Below are positions 3,607 to 61,440 of a DNA stretch of 64,000 bases, in pieces. The translations under genes were made by a program, and so were the position numbers. Source of the DNA: Flavobacterium sp. 9R (GTDB lineage: Bacteria; Bacteroidota; Bacteroidia; Flavobacteriales; Flavobacteriaceae); the NCBI RefSeq assembly GCF_902506345.1, contig NZ_LR733413.1, forward strand, positions 2,788,617-2,852,616. Direction: 5' to 3'. Position 1 is the first letter of the stretch. Every line of letters starts with the position of its first letter. The notes under the pieces are model-generated. The model was not told where the DNA came from and searched no databases. It saw only the letters and a list, made by a program, of their open reading frames with translations.

Positions 3607-3725
3607 GGAGCGAAACAAAAGGCTTTTTTGCCAGTATGGGTTCCCGCTGTCCTTCCTATCTTTTTTGTCCCGAAAAAAATCGGAACAAAAAAGGATATTC
3701 CCTCCCATCGGGGCTAGAGAATAAC
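3607..3725 (+). repeat. Dispersed structured element, copy A (3' of hemC)
   Basis: The core at 3642-3716 opens with TCCCGCTGTCC and ends with ATCGGGGCTA. The middle is a hairpin with a long T-rich arm pairing to an A-rich arm across a CCGA/TCGG top. The outer ends can pair CCCG with CGGGG. Flanking AAAAGGCTTTTT-like palindromes lie on both sides. The same framework recurs at 9932, 43893 and 61364 and, on the minus strand, at about 22271-22388. It sits between hemC and hemD without terminating the operon in any obvious way. Confidence 0.75.
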
Positions 3726-9919: not shown

Positions 9920-10000
9920 ATTAGGAGCTATTTCCTGCTCTACACTATATCTTTCCCGCCGAACCCCGGCGGCAAAGGATGCCGTTACGATCAGGGCTAA
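9920..10000 (+). repeat. Dispersed structured element, copy B (3' of cytochrome c gene)
   Basis: The core at 9932-9999 opens with TCCTGCT and ends with GATCAGGGCTA. The middle hairpin pairs CTTTCCCGCCG with CGGCGGCAAAG around the loop segment GAACCCC. The outer bases are CCTG with CAGGG, whereas copies A and C have CCCG with CGGGG, a compensatory change. It lies about 30 bp after the cytochrome stop codon, in the gene's orientation. Confidence 0.8.
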
Positions 10001-10008
10001 ACCACACA

Positions 10009-35025: not shown

Positions 35026-36390
35026 TTAATTCCAACCTCCGCCTAAGGCTTTGTATAACTGAACCATAGCGGTTAATTGACGTTGCGACAATTGTGACAA
35101 ACTAATTTCTGCATCGAACAAAGAACGCTGCACATCCAAAACTTCCAGATAAGAAACATAACCATTGTAATAACGTGCATAGGATAATTCATAATTCTTT
35201 TTTGCAGCGGCAACTTGACGGCTTCTTGCTTCAAATTCTTCCTTAAAGGTGGTAACGTTTTGAATAGCGTTTTCAACTTCTCCAACTGCAACTAGATATG
35301 TTTTTTGATAATTGAGTTTAGATTGCTCTGCTATTTGACGGTTAATTTCTACACGTCTTCTGTTTTTTCCAAATTGAAAAATAGGACCGACCACTCCTGC
35401 CGAAGCATTTTGATTATAGGAACCACTATCGTATAAGTCACCCACTTTTGCGCTAGCAAATCCTGCAAAAGCCGCAATGTTGAATGAAGGAAAACGCATC
35501 GCTTGCGCTACTCCAATGCGCTCGTGAGCTGCTATGTATTGTAATTCTGCTCTTTTTACATCAGGTCTGTTTTGCAACAAAGTCGACGGAATCGACAAAG
35601 GCAAATTGGTTACCATCAATTGCTCTTTGTTGGATTTTCCTCTTTCTATAGGTGCTGGCATTTGTCCAATCAAAATGGAAATCGTGTTTTCTAAAACGGT
35701 GATTTGTCTTTTGATATTTGGAATGGCAGCTTCGGCAATAGCAACTTGTTGTTCTATTTGCACTTTATCCAATTCTGAAGTATAACCACTTTTAAAACGG
35801 TCGGTAATGATTACATAGGAATCCTGACGTGTCTTCAACGTTTGTTTCGTGATTTCTAGTTGATTGTCTAAATCCCTCAACTGAAAATAAGCGGTGGCAA
35901 TATCACTTACTAATCCTGCCATTACAGTCTTTCTCGCTTCCTCGGTAGCCAAAAGCTCATTTTGAACGGCTCTATTTTCGTGTCTTAGTTTTCCCCAAAA
36001 ATCGATTTCCCAAGACATATTTGCCACCAAAGTAGAAGGCTGAAATATAGTTTCTGCCGTGTTTACGCCTCCAGAATATTGAAAAGTGGGTAAAACATTG
36101 GCTTTGGTAAATCCTAAATTGGCTTTGGCTTGGTCCAATCTTGAAATGGCAATTTTTAAATCATAATTGTTTTGAATTCCTTTGGTAATCAAGCCTTTTA
36201 AAACCTCATCATTAAAGATATCAAACCATTTCACATTTAGAATAGAAGCAGTGGTATCTGCTGTTTGTGCCATTCTATATTGCATTGATTCTTGCAATTC
36301 TGGTGCTTTATATTTTGGCCCTACCAAACAACTTATTGGCAAAAAAGACAGCGTAAGCAACAGTAATCCTATTTTATATTTATTCCTCAT
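35026..36390 (-). CDS. TolC-family outer-membrane efflux lipoprotein
   Basis: A 454-residue NodT-type outer-membrane factor. From the ATG at 36390 the signal ends in the lipobox LPISC (Cys21), followed by VGPKYKAPEL, the classic start of this family; in-frame starts further upstream would hide it. Two long TolC-like helical repeats follow (AISRLDQAKANLGFTKA, ARYYNGYVSYLEVLDVQRSLFDAE). It forms the trimeric exit channel. Its start overlaps the pump gene by 11 bp. Confidence 0.93.
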   Translation of the reverse strand: MRNKYKIGLLLLTLSFLPISCLVGPKYKAPELQESMQYRMAQTADTTASILNVKWFDIFNDEVLKGLITKGIQNNYDLKIAISRLDQAKANLGFTKANVLPTFQYSGGVNTAETIFQPSTLVANMSWEIDFWGKLRHENRAVQNELLATEEARKTVMAGLVSDIATAYFQLRDLDNQLEITKQTLKTRQDSYVIITDRFKSGYTSELDKVQIEQQVAIAEAAIPNIKRQITVLENTISILIGQMPAPIERGKSNKEQLMVTNLPLSIPSTLLQNRPDVKRAELQYIAAHERIGVAQAMRFPSFNIAAFAGFASAKVGDLYDSGSYNQNASAGVVGPIFQFGKNRRRVEINRQIAEQSKLNYQKTYLVAVGEVENAIQNVTTFKEEFEARSRQVAAAKKNYELSYARYYNGYVSYLEVLDVQRSLFDAEISLSQLSQRQLTAMVQLYKALGGGWN

Positions 36391-39300
36391 GGCTAATCGA
36401 TTTAGTAGGTTCGACATTTGATTCGGAGGTCTTCTTTTTTCCGAAACCTTCAATAAACACAAATAAAACGGGAATAAAACAGACTCCTAAAATTGTAGCT
36501 ACAAGCATTCCGCTAAACACGGTCATTCCCATTACCTTTCGGGCTTGAGCTCCCGCTCCTGAAGCAGTTAACAATGGAACCACACCAAGAATGAAAGCAA
36601 AAGCCGTCATTAAAATGGGTCGGAATCGCAACTTAGCAGCTGTTAAAGCTGCCTCTACTAAAGGAACTCCTTTCTCATATTCAGCTTTCGCAAATTCGAC
36701 AATCAGAATGGCATTTTTGGCCGCCAGTCCAATGAGCATTACCAGTCCAATTTGAGCAAAAACATTGTTCACATAATCAGGACTAAATAACTTGCACAAA
36801 TACAATCCCAAGAAGGCGCCAAACACAGCAAAAGGTGTACCTAACAATACACTAAACGGCAGCTTCCAGCTTTCGTATTGAGCCGCTAAGATTAAGAACA
36901 CAAACAAAATAGCCATAATAAAAACAGTGGCTCCTTTCCCTTCAGCTTGTTTTTCTTGATAACTCATCGCAGACCATTCGTACCCCATATCTGCTGGAAG
37001 AATTTTTTCGGCAGTTTCTTGCAACGCTTGACGAGCTTCTGCAGAAGTATAACCCTCGGCAGGTGTTCCTCCAATTTCAGCTGCTCGGTACAAATTGAAA
37101 CGAGTAGTAAACTCGGGTCCGCTCTCTTTTTTTATCGTGGCAATACTCGAAATAGGAATCATAATATTGTCTCTGTTACGAACAAAGATTTTGTTGATGT
37201 CTTCCGGATTCAAGGTGAAGCTTGGAGCCGCCTGAATCAAAACGATGTATTGTCGCCCAAATCTGTTGAACTCATTTACGTATTGTCCTCCCAAACTGGC
37301 TCCAATGGCGATATTCACATCCGATAGTGATAAATTGAGTTCGGTTACTTTTTCTCGGTCAATATCCAGACTAATTTGAGGAACATTCGGGTTAAACGTA
37401 GTTCGAACACTACCTATTTCAGGACGTTTTCTAGCTTCGGCCATAAAACGTTGGGCATTTTCAAACAAATATTGAGGCGTTTTTCCTCCCTTATCTTGTA
37501 ACATAATGGTAAATCCAGCCGCATTTCCAATTCCCGTAATAGGAGGTGGACCAAATGCAAAAGCGGTGGCTTCTGGTACAGCATACACTAATTTTCCGTT
37601 TAACTCTTTTATGATTTGAAACACATCTTGCTCTCGCTCTTTCCATTCTTTCAACGAGATAAAGAAAAAACCATTATTGGTAGCCATAGAGTTTTTCAAC
37701 AAACTAAATCCTGCTACTGTGGTGTAATATTCGATTCCTTCTGTTTTTCCTAAAATGGCTTCGATTTTTTTACAAACTGCTTCGGTTCGATGCAAAGAAG
37801 AAGCGCCTGGTAATTCAACATTGATAAACATATACCCTTGGTCTTCTTCTGGAACAAATCCACCTGGTATTTTACTGCCAAGCAGTATAATGGCTCCCAC
37901 AATTATCCCTATGAATATAAAACTGCGAACGGTTTTCTTAATCAAAAAACCTGTGAGACCGGTGTATTTGCCCGTAAAAGCATCAAATTTTCGATTGAAT
38001 GCCTTGAAAAAACGACCTAACCAACCTGTAGCTTCTTGATTGGGTTTTAATAAAATAGAACACAAAGCTGGACTTAAAGTTAAAGCACTTATGGCTGAAA
38101 ATACCACAGAGATAGCAATTGTGATTGCAAACTGTTGGTACAAACGACCTGTAATTCCGGGTGTCATCGCCACTGGGATGAAAACGGCCGTCAACACCAC
38201 CGCTATAGCTACTACAGGTCCCGAAACTTCTTTCATCGCGCGGTTGGTAGCCTCTCTTGGCGACAATCCGTGCTCAATATGATGCATTACAGCTTCGACT
38301 ACGACAATCGCATCATCGACCACAATACCTATCGCTAGTACCAAACCTAACAAGGAAAGTACATTCACAGAGAACCCTAAAAGCGGGAACAACATAAATA
38401 CCCCAATTAAGGAAACAGGTACTGTAAGCAAAGGAATAATGGTGGCTCTCCAATTTTGCAAAAAGATAAACACTACTATAATTACCAGAATGATAGCTTC
38501 TAAAAGCGTGTGCATAATTTCGTTTATCCCTTCGGTAATGGCCAAAGTAGTATCAAGAGATGTAGTATATTTAAGGTCTTGCGGAAACTTTTTGCTCAAT
38601 TCGTCCATTACGCGTTTTGACTCCGCTGCTACTTCGAGCGCATTAGAACCTGGCATTTGTTTTACTCCGATAGTTCCTGCTGGTTTTCCATTTAAGCCAC
38701 CTTTTGACGCATAGCTTTCTGTACCAAGAGCAACAGTTGCTACGTCTTTTAATCGGACTTGTTGATTGCCAATATTGGACTTTAGTATGATATTTTCAAA
38801 ATCTTCAATGTCGATTAAACGGTCTTTTAAAGTAACGTTATACGTGAATTCATTTCCGTCTTCGGCTGGTGGTGCGCCAAATTTTCCACCTGGAGCAATT
38901 GAGTTTTGCTCTTTGATGGCATTCATAATGTCGGGAATCGTCAATTTGTATTTGGCCAAAATATCGGGTTTCACCCAAATTCTCATCGCATAATTACTCC
39001 CTCCAAAAATTACTACTTCACCAACACCCTTGATTCTTGAAAGCGCATCCACAATGTTGATGTTAGCATAATTGGTTAAAAAATTAGAATCATACGTGTT
39101 ATTGGGAGAATAAATAGAAAACAACAACAAAGGCATTGACAAGGATTTTTTGGTCGTTACCCCTGTGTTTTTCACATCAACTGGCAAGGTTGAAGTCGCT
39201 GATGCTACTCGGTTTTGAGTCAACATTGTGGCATTATCCAAATCGGTTCCCATATCAAAAGTAACCGATAATGACATACTTCCATCACCGGTATTGGTAG

Positions 39301-39538
39301 ATTGCATATACAGCATATTTTCTACCCCGTTTACTTTTTGTTCGATTGGAGTAGCTACGGCTTGCTCTACATTTAGCGCATTTGCTCCTCTATAACTCGT
39401 TTGAATTTGTACAATTGGAGGCGCTATTTCTGGGTACTGAGCAATTGGTGTGGAGAGAATCGAGAGCCCTCCAATAATTACCATAAAAATGGATAATACA
39501 ATTGCAACGATGGGTCTTCTTACAAAAAAATTATCCAT
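36380..39538 (-). CDS. RND (HAE1/AcrB-type) multidrug efflux permease
   Basis: A 1052-residue proton-driven inner-membrane pump. It shows the N-terminal MDNFFVRRPIVAIVLS, periplasmic porter loops, the proton-relay aspartates in VLAIGIVVDDAIVVVE and the second membrane bundle with AKNAILIVEFA. Length and layout match AcrB/MexF. It lies between adaptor and outer-membrane genes in the order adaptor-pump-channel, with gaps of 2 bp and an overlap of 11 bp, so the three are one operon. Substrates cannot be told from sequence; no local regulator gene is present. Confidence 0.96.
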   Translation of the reverse strand: MDNFFVRRPIVAIVLSIFMVIIGGLSILSTPIAQYPEIAPPIVQIQTSYRGANALNVEQAVATPIEQKVNGVENMLYMQSTNTGDGSMSLSVTFDMGTDLDNATMLTQNRVASATSTLPVDVKNTGVTTKKSLSMPLLLFSIYSPNNTYDSNFLTNYANINIVDALSRIKGVGEVVIFGGSNYAMRIWVKPDILAKYKLTIPDIMNAIKEQNSIAPGGKFGAPPAEDGNEFTYNVTLKDRLIDIEDFENIILKSNIGNQQVRLKDVATVALGTESYASKGGLNGKPAGTIGVKQMPGSNALEVAAESKRVMDELSKKFPQDLKYTTSLDTTLAITEGINEIMHTLLEAIILVIIVVFIFLQNWRATIIPLLTVPVSLIGVFMLFPLLGFSVNVLSLLGLVLAIGIVVDDAIVVVEAVMHHIEHGLSPREATNRAMKEVSGPVVAIAVVLTAVFIPVAMTPGITGRLYQQFAITIAISVVFSAISALTLSPALCSILLKPNQEATGWLGRFFKAFNRKFDAFTGKYTGLTGFLIKKTVRSFIFIGIIVGAIILLGSKIPGGFVPEEDQGYMFINVELPGASSLHRTEAVCKKIEAILGKTEGIEYYTTVAGFSLLKNSMATNNGFFFISLKEWKEREQDVFQIIKELNGKLVYAVPEATAFAFGPPPITGIGNAAGFTIMLQDKGGKTPQYLFENAQRFMAEARKRPEIGSVRTTFNPNVPQISLDIDREKVTELNLSLSDVNIAIGASLGGQYVNEFNRFGRQYIVLIQAAPSFTLNPEDINKIFVRNRDNIMIPISSIATIKKESGPEFTTRFNLYRAAEIGGTPAEGYTSAEARQALQETAEKILPADMGYEWSAMSYQEKQAEGKGATVFIMAILFVFLILAAQYESWKLPFSVLLGTPFAVFGAFLGLYLCKLFSPDYVNNVFAQIGLVMLIGLAAKNAILIVEFAKAEYEKGVPLVEAALTAAKLRFRPILMTAFAFILGVVPLLTASGAGAQARKVMGMTVFSGMLVATILGVCFIPVLFVFIEGFGKKKTSESNVEPTKSISHEE

Positions 39539-39540
39539 AA

Positions 39541-40680
39541 CTATTGTGCTTTTTTAGTTTCTGGTGAATAAGGAACTGGCGTAACTACTGAGCCCGGCTG
39601 AATGAACAAACTACCCACAATGGCTACTTTATCTCCCACGTTTAAGCCTTTGTTGATTACCCAATCTTGACCCACTTTGGCACCAACCTCAACAATACGA
39701 ACCTGAATTTTATTCTCATTATCGATAATGAATACCTGAAAAATTCCTTGTAATTCGGTTACTGCTTTTTGAGGAATGGCAATCGCTCCTTTTTGATTTT
39801 CAATCAAAGCTCTTACTTTTGAAAATTGACCAGAGCGCAAATTATTGTCAGGATTAGGGAAAGTTGTTTCAATAGTCATTGTTCCTGTGGTAGGGTCGAT
39901 TTTGGCGTCAGCAAAATTCAGAACTCCTTTGTAGGGATGAACACTTCCGTCAGAAAGCAAAAGCTCAATATCGTTGGCAGCATTATCTTTACTTAAGCTT
40001 TTCTTCTTGCGATAATCTAAAAACTCGGCTTCGCTGATGGTAAATCTAACCCTTACTTTGTCTAATCTAGAAACCGTATTTAGTTTAGAAGAATTACCGA
40101 TTCTTGAAATATAATCACCAACTCTAGCATTACTAATTCCTATAACTCCATCAATTGGCGAAAGTATATTGCAATAACTACGCTCCAATTGTTGGTTGCG
40201 TAACGAAGCTTGAGTACTTTCATAATTAGAACGTGCCGCCTTAGCTTTAGCAACAGCGGCGTCCAATTCACGTTTACTAACTGCGTTCATATCAGCTAGC
40301 GGGCGAATTCTTTTCAGCTCTTCCTCTGCATTGACGAGATTACTTTGTGAGGTAGCCACTTGTCCTTTTACTTGTTCTACTTTGGTATCATATTCTAATG
40401 GGTCAATGGTGTACAACAATTGCCCTTTTCGCACTCTCTCTCCTTCTTTAAAATGAATACCTGTCAAAATTCCGTCCACTCTAGCGGTCAGCACAATGTC
40501 TAAATCTCCAAAGGTTTGCGCGGCAAAATCCTTGTAAATAGGAACATCTTTTGCGACAACTGTAATAAACGGAGCTGGAATAGGCGGTGGCGCTTGCTTT
40601 TCTTCTTTTTTACAAGAACTAAACAGACTTAAAAAAACAATAAGCACCCAGAAAAAATTAGGTTTAGATGTGGTATCCAT
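39541..40680 (-). CDS. RND periplasmic adaptor lipoprotein
   Basis: A 379-residue membrane-fusion protein: lipobox LFSSC (Cys23), then a polar Lys/Glu/Pro segment, an MFP beta-barrel, a lipoyl half with GILTGIHFKEGERVRKGQLLY, an alpha-hairpin coiled coil (about 110-170) and a second lipoyl half (SPIDGVIGISNARVGDYI). It links pump and outer-membrane channel. It is the first gene of the operon, divergent from trhO. Confidence 0.94.
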   Translation of the reverse strand: MDTTSKPNFFWVLIVFLSLFSSCKKEEKQAPPPIPAPFITVVAKDVPIYKDFAAQTFGDLDIVLTARVDGILTGIHFKEGERVRKGQLLYTIDPLEYDTKVEQVKGQVATSQSNLVNAEEELKRIRPLADMNAVSKRELDAAVAKAKAARSNYESTQASLRNQQLERSYCNILSPIDGVIGISNARVGDYISRIGNSSKLNTVSRLDKVRVRFTISEAEFLDYRKKKSLSKDNAANDIELLLSDGSVHPYKGVLNFADAKIDPTTGTMTIETTFPNPDNNLRSGQFSKVRALIENQKGAIAIPQKAVTELQGIFQVFIIDNENKIQVRIVEVGAKVGQDWVINKGLNVGDKVAIVGSLFIQPGSVVTPVPYSPETKKAQ

Positions 40681-40882: not shown

Positions 40883-42241
40883 ATGCAACTGTATAACACC
40901 TTAAGCGCAGAAGAAAGAGCCGAGCTTATTGACCAAGCCGGAAAACAACGCCTCACGTTGTCTTTCTATGCGTATGCCAAAATTGAAGATCCCAAAAAAT
41001 TTCGCGACGATTTGTTTATCGAATGGAATAAACTGGATGCACTAGGTAGAACCTATGTAGCCAAAGAAGGAATCAACGCGCAAATGTCTGTCCCTGCCGA
41101 AAATTTAGAAGCCTTTCGTGAAACGCTAGAAGCTTATGAATTTATGCGCAACATTCGCTTGAATGTAGCCGTAGAACACGATGATCATTCGTTTTTGAAA
41201 CTCACTGTAAAGGTGCGTGACAAAATTGTGGCCGACGGATTAAACGACGAAACCTTTGATGTAACCAATATTGGAGTACATCTAAAAGCCAAAGAATTTA
41301 ATGACATCTTAGAAGATCCCAATACGATTGTAGTCGATTTTAGAAACCATTACGAAAGTGAAATCGGTCATTTTAAAGGCGCTATTACTCCTGATGTGGA
41401 AACGTTTCGCGAATCGTTGCCTATCATCAACGAACAATTACAAGACTTTAAAGAAGATAAAAATCTAGTGATGTATTGCACTGGAGGAATTCGTTGCGAA
41501 AAAGCTTCGGCTTACTTCAAGCACCAAGGTTTTAAAAACGTTTTCCAATTAGAAGGAGGTATCATCAACTACGCCAAGCAAATCAAAGAAGAAAATCTAG
41601 AAAGTAAATTTATCGGAAAGAATTTCGTTTTTGACCATCGTTTGGGTGAGCGCATCACAGACGATATCGTTTCGCAATGCCACCAATGTGGAAAACCTTG
41701 CGACAATCATACCAACTGCGAAAATGTTGGCTGTCATTTGTTGTTCATTCAATGTGATGAATGCAAAGAAGCTATGCAAAATTGTTGTTCAAACGAATGT
41801 TTAGACATCATCAAGTTGCCATTAGTTGAGCAAGTAAAGTTGAGAAAAGGCATCCAAGTTGGCAACAAAGTCTTCCGAAAAGGAAAATCAGATAAATTAC
41901 CCTTCAAGCATTCAGGCGAGCTTTCGGACACACCATTGGCAGTTGCCACAACTCCAGCCAAAATTCGTCAAAGAATAAAAATCAAAAAAGCACTTTTAGG
42001 CAAAGCCGAACATTACTTTGTAAAAGCGCAAGTTGCTCTTTTCGTTATTGAAAATAATGAACTACAATTAGGCGATACCATTTTAATTTCGGGTCCTACT
42101 ACAGGAAACGAACAACTTGTACTCGAAAAAATGTTAGTCAACGGCATCGAAAAAACGGTCGCACAACCTGGCGACAAAGTAACATTTGAAGTACCTTTCA
42201 GAGTACGTTTATCTGATACATTGTATAAAATTTTAAAATAG
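40883..42241 (+). CDS. trhO: tRNA uridine(34) hydroxylase TrhO with extra C-terminal TrhP-like domain
   Basis: TrhO catalyses the O2-dependent formation of 5-hydroxyuridine at the wobble position of tRNA. This 452-residue protein has the N-terminal acylphosphatase-like part (LSFYAYAKIEDP, TYVAKEGINAQ), a rhodanese domain with active Cys199 in VMYCTGGIRCEKA, and a cysteine-rich region (Cys266 to Cys302) that may bind zinc. E. coli TrhO stops about 100 residues earlier. Here residues 384-451 align without gaps to residues 344-411 of the neighbouring TrhP (30 of 68 identical, counted by eye), including shared GDxIL, GPxTG, PFRxR and LYKI. The extension is an unusual domain fusion. It is divergent from the efflux operon. 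Confidence 0.93.
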   Translation: MQLYNTLSAEERAELIDQAGKQRLTLSFYAYAKIEDPKKFRDDLFIEWNKLDALGRTYVAKEGINAQMSVPAENLEAFRETLEAYEFMRNIRLNVAVEHDDHSFLKLTVKVRDKIVADGLNDETFDVTNIGVHLKAKEFNDILEDPNTIVVDFRNHYESEIGHFKGAITPDVETFRESLPIINEQLQDFKEDKNLVMYCTGGIRCEKASAYFKHQGFKNVFQLEGGIINYAKQIKEENLESKFIGKNFVFDHRLGERITDDIVSQCHQCGKPCDNHTNCENVGCHLLFIQCDECKEAMQNCCSNECLDIIKLPLVEQVKLRKGIQVGNKVFRKGKSDKLPFKHSGELSDTPLAVATTPAKIRQRIKIKKALLGKAEHYFVKAQVALFVIENNELQLGDTILISGPTTGNEQLVLEKMLVNGIEKTVAQPGDKVTFEVPFRVRLSDTLYKILK

Positions 42242-42264
42242 TTTTTCCAAACTTTCATCCATCA

Positions 42265-42353
42265 CCTTTGTCAAAGTTCAAAACGTTGACAAGGTTCACT
42301 CTACAAAATAAATTGGACACAGATTTCACAAATTAATCTGTGAATTTTGTGTC
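42265..42353. repeat. Two palindromic repeats between trhO and trhP
   Basis: An imperfect hairpin (CCTTTGTCAA with TTGACAAGG, 42265-42295) is followed by a nearly loop-free palindrome, GACACAGATTTCACAAATTA (42316-42335) with its inverse at 42334-42353, three mismatches. Both look like dispersed intergenic repeats of this lineage. They may separate or attenuate the two genes. Confidence 0.6.
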
Positions 42354-42368
42354 AAAATAATATACACA

Positions 42369-43610
42369 ATGACAACAAACAACAAAATAGAATTAATGGC
42401 GCCTGCCGGGAATTTCGAATCCTTGCAAGCCGCCGTAGATAATGGATGTGATTCCGTATATTTTGGAGTAGAACAACTCAATATGCGTGCCCGCGCCTCC
42501 GTAAACTTCACTATGGATGATTTGGCCGAAATCGCCAAACGCTGCGAAGCCAAAAACGTACGAAGTTACTTGACCTTAAACACCATCATTTATGACCACG
42601 ACTTATCTGTGGTCAAAACTTTAATCAATAAAGCCAAAGAAGCTAACATCACTGCGGTGATTGCTTCCGACCAAGCCGTAATTGCAATGGCTCGAAGCGT
42701 GGGGATGGAAGTTCATATTTCTACACAATTGAATGTGACCAATATCGAAACCATCAAATTCTACAGCCTTTTTGCCGATACTATGGTGTTGAGTCGTGAA
42801 TTGAGTTTACGTCAAGTAAAAAAAATCACCGAACAAATCGAAAAAGAACAAATCAAAGGCCCTAACGGAAATTTGGTTGAGATTGAAATCTTTGGTCACG
42901 GAGCGTTATGTATGGCCGTTTCGGGTAAATGCTATTTGAGTCTGCATTCGCATAACTCCTCAGCCAACCGTGGTGCTTGCAAACAAAATTGCCGTAAAAA
43001 ATATACCGTAATCGACCAAGAAACGGGTTTCGAAATCGAATTGGACAACGAGTATATGATGTCGCCCAAAGATTTATGCACCCTAGATTTCCTAGACCAA
43101 GTCATTGATTCGGGTATCCAAGTCCTCAAAATCGAAGGTCGTGGCCGCGCTCCAGAATATGTGGCTACCGTAATCAAAACTTATCGAGAGGCAATTGATG
43201 CCTACTATGACGGCACGTTCTCCAAAGACAAAATCGCCGTTTGGATGGAAGCTTTGAACACCGTGTACAACCGCGGATTCTGGTCGGGTTATTATTTAGG
43301 ACAAGAATTAGGCGAATGGAGCGATGTTTCAGGTTCTGTAGCTACGCAAAAGAAAGTCTATGTAGGCAAAGGCACCCATTTTTTCCCCAAAGCCGAAATT
43401 GGTCAATTCAAAATCGAAGCCTACGATATCAAAGTGGGCGATAAAATTCTAGTAACGGGTCCAAGCACTGGCGCACAAGAAATGGTTATCGAAGAAATGT
43501 TTGTCAACGATACCTCGGCAGAGCGCGCTACCAAAGGAGACGATTGCACCCTCAAACTGCCTTTCAGAATCCGAATGTCCGACAAATTATACAAAATAGT
43601 AGAAGCCTAA
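42369..43610 (+). CDS. trhP: tRNA 5-hydroxyuridine synthase TrhP (peptidase U32 family)
   Basis: Despite its family name, TrhP (YegQ) is an iron-sulfur enzyme of the prephenate-dependent, O2-independent route to 5-hydroxyuridine in tRNA. The 413-residue protein has ELMAPAGNFESLQAAVDNG at the N-terminus, GHGALCMAVSGKCYLS with NRGACKQNCRK (Cys181, 188, 204, 208 as likely cluster ligands), the KIEGRGRAPEYVATV motif and a C-terminal beta-barrel domain (from about residue 344) like the extension on TrhO. Its stop codon overlaps the ferredoxin start by one base (TAATG). Confidence 0.94.
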   Translation: MTTNNKIELMAPAGNFESLQAAVDNGCDSVYFGVEQLNMRARASVNFTMDDLAEIAKRCEAKNVRSYLTLNTIIYDHDLSVVKTLINKAKEANITAVIASDQAVIAMARSVGMEVHISTQLNVTNIETIKFYSLFADTMVLSRELSLRQVKKITEQIEKEQIKGPNGNLVEIEIFGHGALCMAVSGKCYLSLHSHNSSANRGACKQNCRKKYTVIDQETGFEIELDNEYMMSPKDLCTLDFLDQVIDSGIQVLKIEGRGRAPEYVATVIKTYREAIDAYYDGTFSKDKIAVWMEALNTVYNRGFWSGYYLGQELGEWSDVSGSVATQKKVYVGKGTHFFPKAEIGQFKIEAYDIKVGDKILVTGPSTGAQEMVIEEMFVNDTSAERATKGDDCTLKLPFRIRMSDKLYKIVEA

Positions 43611-43840
43611 TGGTCATCATCACCCTGCAAAGAGACAAATGCATCGGTTGCAATTACTGCGTAGAAATGGCGCCCGTTCAGTTTCAAATGTCCAAAAAAG
43701 ACGGTAAATCGGTGCTCATCAAAAGTGTCAATGCCAAAGGTTTTTACACCCTAAAATCGCCCGATCACACCATCGTAGAAAGTTGCGAACTCGCCGCAAA
43801 GGCTTGTCCCGTAAAAATTATTTCGGTCAAAGAAACCTAG
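43610..43840 (+). CDS. 4Fe-4S ferredoxin
   Basis: A 76-residue protein. The start ATG overlaps the trhP stop in TAATG, indicating translational coupling; a longer in-frame extension would lie inside trhP. Cluster ligands are CIGCNYC and the later ACP in AAKACPVKI, the usual single [4Fe-4S] pattern, with an extra Cys at SCELAAK. It is probably an electron carrier for the adjacent iron-sulfur enzyme TrhP, an inference from coupling. Confidence 0.92.
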   Translation: MVIITLQRDKCIGCNYCVEMAPVQFQMSKKDGKSVLIKSVNAKGFYTLKSPDHTIVESCELAAKACPVKIISVKET

Positions 43841-43849
43841 CCTCTAACT

Positions 43850-43975
43850 GTTTTTAGGAGCAGAAAAAATAGGCTTTTTTAAGGAACAATGGTCCCGCTA
43901 TCCGTTGCAATCTTTGCGGGCTGAACCCCAGCCCACAAAGGATTTCCACTACTATCGGGGCTAAAGAGCCACAAT
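43850..43975 (+). repeat. Dispersed structured element, copy C (3' of the ferredoxin gene)
   Basis: The core at 43893-43963 opens with TCCCGCTATCC and ends with ATCGGGGCTA. The middle hairpin pairs CTTTGCGGGCTG with CAGCCCACAAAG around GAACCCC-type loop bases. As in copy A, the outer bases are CCCG/CGGGG and an AGGAGC and GGCTTTTTT prelude precedes it. It lies just after the ferredoxin gene in its orientation. Confidence 0.8.
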
Positions 43976-61350: not shown

Positions 61351-61440
61351 TTTTAGGAGCTAATCCTGCTGTCCACTATATCTTGCTTGGCGAACCCCGC
61401 CAAGCAAGGATGCCGTTCCCATCAGGGCTAGGGCATAGGA
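61351..61440 (+). repeat. Dispersed structured element, copy D (3' of xth)
   Basis: The core at 61364-61430 opens with TCCTGCTGTCC and ends with ATCAGGGCTA. The middle hairpin is perfect: CTTGCTTGGCG with CGCCAAGCAAG around AACC. Outer bases are CCTG with CAGGG, as in copy B. It begins a few bases after the xth stop, in the gene's orientation. Confidence 0.85.

Follow-up and report, generated by a model that had tools for sequence, protein, structure and literature searches.

TrhO (YceA, UPF0176) is an oxygen-dependent hydroxylase of U34 in tRNA, and TrhP (YegQ) as well as TrhP1/TrhP2 (YrrO/YrrN) are tRNA hydroxylases of the U32 family (PMC6599085). TrhP occurs mainly in proteobacteria, and TrhP1/TrhP2 occur in Firmicutes and in some Tenericutes and Cyanobacteria (PMC6599085). 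According to the same source, Bacteroides species have no trhO, and other U32 subfamilies have been suggested as functional homologs (PMC6599085). The present analysis concerns the trhO locus of Flavobacterium sp. 9R, situated in a stretch of 64,000 nucleotides (contig NZ_LR733413.1, positions 2,788,617 to 2,852,616 of the forward strand; this whole stretch is called the window). The TrhO protein encoded here ends in a domain that is homologous to the C-terminal domain of the U32-family protein encoded next to it. We give roughly even odds (about 0.5) to the reading that this tail is a tRNA-holding module captured from the parallel enzyme type. The features that matter most are:

40883..42241, + strand: trhO, encoding a predicted oxygen-dependent tRNA U34 hydroxylase of 452 amino acids (aa) with matches to NCBIfam NF001133, PF17773, PF00581 and PF12368 and with the CTGGIR motif.
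41912..42238, + strand: TrhO residues 344-452, a linker followed by the presumably captured U32-type C-terminal domain (domain about 366-452).
42369..43610, + strand: U32-family protein of 413 aa, called 'TrhP' in the first-pass annotation (PF01136; separate Bacteroidota subfamily according to trees).
43308..43607, + strand: C-terminal domain of the U32 protein, residues 314-413, homolog of the TrhO tail by BLASTP and profile-profile comparison.

Over most of its length, the window TrhO resembles YceA of E. coli. Both have the three Pfam domains PF17773, PF00581 and PF12368 and the CXGGXR active-site loop, which reads CTGGIR at residue 199 (200 in E. coli) and is found in 61 of 61 extracted TrhO proteins. 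The NCBIfam equivalog NF001133 is matched with 264.4 bits, over its cut-off of 170. The difference lies at the end of the protein: E. coli TrhO stops at 350 residues without such an extension, as was claimed beforehand, whereas the window protein adds 109 residues of U32 type, starting where tailless TrhO proteins end (342-357 aa; n = 15 extracted).

The homology of this extension to the neighboring protein is supported at several levels. TrhO residues 384-451 align without gaps to residues 344-411 of the U32 protein with 30 identities in 68 positions, and a recount returned exactly the number given earlier. BLASTP of both proteins yields 50 identities in 135 positions (E 5e-25), with a match running back to TrhO residue 344 (GELSD), which is paired with U32 residue 314 (GEWSD). 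The alignment score of both protein ends (from residue 311) is 219, as compared to a mean of 27, a standard deviation of 4.6 and a maximum of 52 in 2000 shuffles. Finally, when a profile of 26 TrhO tails is compared to one of 37 U32 tails, the probability is 100 (E 4.3e-42, 88 columns), and this homology spans the whole domain. By these comparisons, the TrhO tail and the U32 C-terminal domain are true homologs. The common C-terminal domain proposed in the first-pass annotation is thereby upheld, and its alternative, a TrhO tail of a different fold, did not come true.

The tail is clade-specific and not general to TrhO. Its distribution was followed in a phylum survey (296 genomes) and an order survey (246 genomes, of which 223 are listed) of Bacteroidota, with counts among the matches listed; outside the phylum, the comparison covers TrhO of E. 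coli. In the phylum survey, the query was covered to residue 450-452 in 18 of 18 Flavobacterium genomes and in 6 of 6 genomes of the Chryseobacterium family, and among the matches listed no TrhO outside these two groups reached that far. In the order survey, all 23 listed Flavobacterium genomes carry the tail. It is present in one of the 17 other listed genomes of the same family (G501), 15 of which have a tailless TrhO and one of which (G456) has no TrhO. The Chryseobacterium family carries it in 32 of 38 listed genomes; the other six have no TrhO, meaning that all 32 TrhO-bearing genomes are tailed. None of the remaining TrhO proteins among the matches listed extends beyond query residue 373. 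When 5.8 billion proteins were searched with the tail region, 730 matches were obtained, and all 120 listed carry the TrhO domain PF12368. With a query from the Chryseobacterium family, the best 80 of 392 named loci (Chryseobacterium, Elizabethkingia, Kaistella, Epilithonimonas) were all tailed. As far as these surveys of the phylum reach, the same extension on most TrhO proteins of all phyla, which had been named as a possible outcome, did not come true. No published TrhO with such a tail was found among the titles and abstract openings listed in literature searches.

Phylogenies support a single capture of the tail and its later spread by transfer. In a tree of the TrhO core (61 extracted rows, 46 of them tailed; midpoint rooted), the tailed proteins form one side of a branch at 100/100. 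In a tree of the tails (97 rows and 88 columns, with an unsettled bootstrap), all 46 from TrhO form one clade (99/95), which joins 12 of 14 Flavobacterium U32 tails at 99/96, with few columns and the same unsettled bootstrap. L127 (longest open reading frame not TrhO) and L139 (uncertain start) were left out of the alignments. The fusion of the U32-type domain to the end of trhO would thus have been a single event, most likely within the Flavobacterium lineage. The five less diverged TrhO tails have mean identities of 61.8% to U32 tails of the genus, 54.6% to those of other Flavobacteriaceae and 50.5% to those of the Chryseobacterium family; the 41 diverged tails do not discriminate between these groups (49.8, 46.2 and 48.8%, respectively). 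By identity and tree, the tail is nearest to the U32 tails of the genus itself. Approximately unbiased (AU) tests do not settle which Flavobacteriales U32 protein donated the tail. They do not reject a clade without TrhO tails made up of the genus U32 tails (p 0.52), of the genus and Chryseobacterium-family U32 tails (0.52) or of the 32-row Flavobacteriales U32 tail set (0.22; 0.37 with only the five less diverged TrhO tails), nor a grouping of the TrhO tails with the Chryseobacterium-family U32 tails (0.43). The sole rejection (0.036) is confounded by row G134.

TrhO of the Chryseobacterium family falls inside the Flavobacterium-G501 clade in the midpoint-rooted core tree, joined at 100/98 to part of the genus. 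The U32 proteins of that family form a separate clade in the tail tree, including those from genomes without TrhO. Because the cores are nested in this way and the U32 proteins stand apart, the trees suggest that the tailed trhO later passed to the Chryseobacterium family without its U32 gene. Two kinds of TrhO tail are found in the genus (L003-L026 versus L063-L069), a U32-like one in five genomes and a diverged one, which is the kind of the window. Two independent captures, giving the diverged ('type I') and the U32-like ('type II') tails, were considered and found unsupported, as the core and tail trees each contain one clade. Separately, TrhO of Elizabethkingia miricola (L208) and E. occulta (L210) is 89-90% identical to a Chryseobacterium TrhO, possibly by a further transfer.

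One explanation of the tail, the second option of the first-pass annotation, is that it serves to attach TrhO to the U32 protein or to its ferredoxin, coupling both routes. The derivation of the tail from that very U32 family and the adjacency of the genes in the window and several relatives speak for it. However, a full-length U32 protein of the window type is encoded in 21 of the 56 tailed genomes of the order survey, and the other 35 have none (present in 14 of 23 genomes of the genus, 7 of 32 of the Chryseobacterium family and not in G501). Similarly, among the best 80 of 392 named loci, the U32 and ferredoxin genes adjoin trhO in 8, whereas no U32 gene is present in the other 72 within the available stretch, up to 3.5 kb on each side. 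The ferredoxin is missing as well from 30 of 30 fetched stretches that lack the U32 gene. Moreover, the tail is under purifying selection that is similar with or without the U32 protein. Its median ratio of nonsynonymous to synonymous substitution rates (dN/dS) is 0.094, 0.086 and 0.085 for pairs with zero, one and two U32-less members, respectively (29, 19 and 6 pairs, which overlap; core dS 0.15-1.0, tail dS >0.1). Docking on the U32 protein is therefore improbable, and the proposal that the tail docks TrhO on TrhP is not supported. The order trhO-U32-ferredoxin also exists with tailless TrhO in the relatives G107, G118 and G198, so that the pairing is independent of the tail. The distance between trhO and the U32 gene is 630-1682 bases in seven tailed Flavobacterium stretches.

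The residues that both kinds of tail retain would fit a role in binding RNA. A comparison of 46 TrhO tails with 32 Flavobacteriales U32 tails (conserved meaning 90% or more) identified 24 positions that hold the same residue in both and none that is conserved but different. Eight shared positions are lysine or arginine, i.e., K368, K369, K374, K381, R440, R442, K446 and K449, the window's own TrhO having T446; H377 is shared as well. A further 7 positions are conserved in TrhO tails only and 17 in U32 tails only. The shared basic set may represent the RNA-facing side of the tail, and the set specific to U32 proteins may represent the former contact with the U32 barrel. In the proposed mechanism, the domain would grip the tRNA through these lysines and arginines in both enzymes, and a separate catalytic domain, of rhodanese or U32 type, would hydroxylate U34 while the tail holds the tRNA. 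Because the tail is kept where the U32 neighbor is gone, it probably helps to hold the tRNA. It would thus be a substrate-binding module borrowed from a parallel enzyme for the same base and not a tether between the enzymes. The other half of the earlier proposal, that both enzymes dock on one tRNA, agrees with the conserved basic residues and with the weak matches to translation-factor domains described below; the binding itself is what we infer from them.

For the family of the domain, 26 TrhO tails were searched with hmmscan (E <= 1). Peptidase_U32_C (PF16325) matches 12 of them, the best at 6.7e-6, and GTP_EFTU_D2 (PF03144), domain 2 of EF-Tu, weakly matches 13, the best at 1.2e-5. Against PDB sequences, the tail profile returned 12 entries, all at E-values of 0.11 to 0.93; nine of them are EF-Tu, which also ranks first. 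When whole window proteins were searched against Pfam and the PDB, the tail was not revealed. Among the U32 proteins, PF16325 has no match in the window protein at E <= 1 and matches 12 of 40 aligned whole proteins, and GTP_EFTU_D2 matches 9 of the 40. From these matches, a translation-factor-like barrel is plausible for the TrhO tail. This small barrel would have PF16325, and perhaps also domain 2 of translation GTPases, as its relatives and is placed in this case on a rhodanese enzyme. To our knowledge, no function has been assigned to PF16325.

A number of results weigh against a tRNA-holding barrel. G5 matches 10 of the 26 TrhO tails (best 2.8e-4), and other families match weakly too. The window tail scores 15.1 bits with PF16325, under the gathering cut-off of 28.2, and a domain of unknown function matches it with a better E-value than PF16325 does. 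With hhalign, the tail profile compared to single sequences gives a probability of 0.7 for E. coli EF-Tu, which is not significant and does not confirm the PF03144 matches, and a weak 8.1 for E. coli TrhP. Two lysines are among the positions conserved in U32 tails only and are not conserved in TrhO tails, and the net charge of the tail is only about +2. The conserved basic residues may serve folding instead. Lastly, the dN/dS of the tail is about three times that of the core (0.03).

This raised dN/dS would also suit two other explanations. The tail could be a structural or oligomerization part of TrhO without direct RNA contact, which we regard as unlikely while rating it above the other alternatives to a tRNA-holding module. 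G397, D398, G404, T407, G408, D431, T434 and D445, conserved in both tails, indeed resemble fold positions. However, tailless TrhO proteins of other genera of the family are 64-72% identical to the core, which indicates that the core folds without a tail, and the eight lysine and arginine positions are conserved across both proteins. Alternatively, the fusion was an accident locked in without benefit, an account that agrees with a single origin and that is very improbable, as the tail is on every listed TrhO of the genus (23) and of the Chryseobacterium family (32) in the order survey, has a dN/dS of about 0.09 and keeps 24 positions in common with U32 tails.

The neighboring U32 protein is related to TrhP and belongs to a separate subfamily. 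Like TrhP and TrhP1/TrhP2, it has the U32 domain (PF01136), four invariant cysteines (Cys181, Cys188, Cys204 and Cys208, invariant in 40 aligned proteins) and a C-terminal domain, and the alignment of a profile of the 40 proteins to E. coli TrhP covers almost the full length (382 columns). In contrast to them, it has a ferredoxin gene attached and scores below the cut-off of the NCBIfam TrhP equivalog NF011996 (199.2 against 534 bits), yet this is the best of its four NCBIfam matches. A U32 tree was built with E. coli TrhP, RlhA and UbiU and a Paenibacillus U32 pair encoded next to mltG as references. We take this pair to be TrhP1/TrhP2 on the basis of the yrr operon and of the published description. 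The window protein belongs to a Bacteroidota clade of 14 rows (96/97; long branches, no outgroup), which is split at 94/88 from E. coli TrhP together with the Paenibacillus pair. On both the score and the tree, the name 'TrhP' of the first-pass annotation does not hold, and for the window protein it can be used only by inference. The U32 protein of Bacteroides finegoldii is 57% identical to that of the window. A second kind of U32 protein, found in some Bacteroidota (L141 of G005 and, judged by score, G087), clusters with E. coli TrhP, subject to a caution about long branches.

TrhO and this U32 protein have complementary distributions. In the order survey, 26 genomes have both, 150 TrhO only, 20 the U32 protein only and 7 neither (n = 203 genomes with any match to the TrhO query); across the phylum, these numbers are 54, 107, 81 and 54 (n = 296; TrhO E < about 1e-25, U32 E < 1e-60). 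Fisher's test, which ignores kinship, gives p-values of 8e-10 and 8e-6, respectively. The order tally left out 43 genomes without any TrhO-query match; 20 of these are listed, 18 being genomes of 0.3-0.6 Mb from family f64. One f64 genome of about 0.3 Mb has a full-length U32 protein of the window type (L240, G495:C3:44798-46021), and none was found in the three other small f64 genomes searched. Because of this complementarity, the U32 protein likely does the same job as TrhO, which suggests hydroxylase activity for a Bacteroidota U32 subfamily that belongs to none of the named TrhP groups.

The same alternation is found at a single chromosomal site. In the Chryseobacterium family, the position upstream of a shared gene (by eye, 5-formyltetrahydrofolate cyclo-ligase) is occupied by the U32 gene alone in 6, by trhO-U32 in 5 and by trhO alone in 7 stretches (18 of 22 fetched stretches; genes of at least 80 aa compared; L111, L113, L116 and L118 left out). 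In one U32-only stretch, the shared gene lies further along, after three other genes. The gene upstream is likewise the same in 4, 1 and 5 stretches of the three states, respectively. This series is what displacement in place would leave, judged from gene order. Tentatively, and with less confidence than in the tRNA-holding role itself, an enzyme could have taken the substrate-recognition domain of an unrelated enzyme for the same tRNA modification and so become able to replace it; in the Chryseobacterium family, the tailed trhO would have joined a resident U32 gene, after which the U32-ferredoxin pair was lost in situ. In that case, a single chromosomal site would show how one route is superseded by another.

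The same series bears on a different account, in which the tail retargets TrhO to another set of tRNAs or to an rRNA site made by the U32 protein, the fusion having moved the U32 target to TrhO. The U32 protein has its own clade and is unproven as a tRNA enzyme, and in the Chryseobacterium family TrhO occupies the U32 site, alone in some genomes. However, tailless TrhO and this U32 protein are complementary across the phylum as well, with most TrhO tailless, for which a target shared before the fusion is simpler. Retargeting is thus doubtful, more so than a structural role. Overall, a tRNA-holding module is most likely, a structural role and retargeting are less so, and a tether or an accident is least likely.

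Capture, and not descent, accounts for the domain that is common to these two unrelated types of enzyme, which probably make one tRNA modification, and it points to holding the tRNA as the probable job of that domain. Fusions of yceA with trmR are described for Phytophthora and Phaeodactylum (PMC6599085). They likewise combine TrhO with a protein acting in the same modification, in that case the next enzyme, whereas the window TrhO carries a non-catalytic domain from a parallel type of enzyme. The genome of the window has nothing over the cut-off for CmoB. It has three methyltransferases of PF01596 over the cut-off, which we take to be the family of TrmR.

Two further features complete the locus:

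42242..42368, + strand: intergenic gap of 127 bases between trhO and the U32 gene.
43610..43840, + strand: 4Fe-4S ferredoxin of 76 aa, whose start overlaps the stop codon of the U32 gene.

A promoter-like site is present in the gap at 42286-42314, but a scan of the region yields no more sites than its shuffles. The ferredoxin probably serves the U32 protein as a dedicated redox or cluster partner. In all 51 genomes yielding a U32 protein of the window type, the ferredoxin gene is next to the U32 gene; it touches or overlaps the U32 gene in 53 of 68 loci (some genomes having several) and is at most 944 bases away. Among fetched stretches, it is present in 30 of 30 with the U32 gene and in 0 of 30 without it. 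Upstream of trhO and divergent from it lies what by eye is a resistance-nodulation-division (RND) efflux operon on the - strand (35026-40680), comprising an outer-membrane factor, a pump and a membrane fusion protein. The ferredoxin gene is directly followed, on the opposite strand, by a Flavo-1 RNA (RF01705) at 43887-43966 (- strand), one of four in the window over the gathering score, the others being at 3636-3719, 9927-10002 and 61358-61433 (the last on the - strand).

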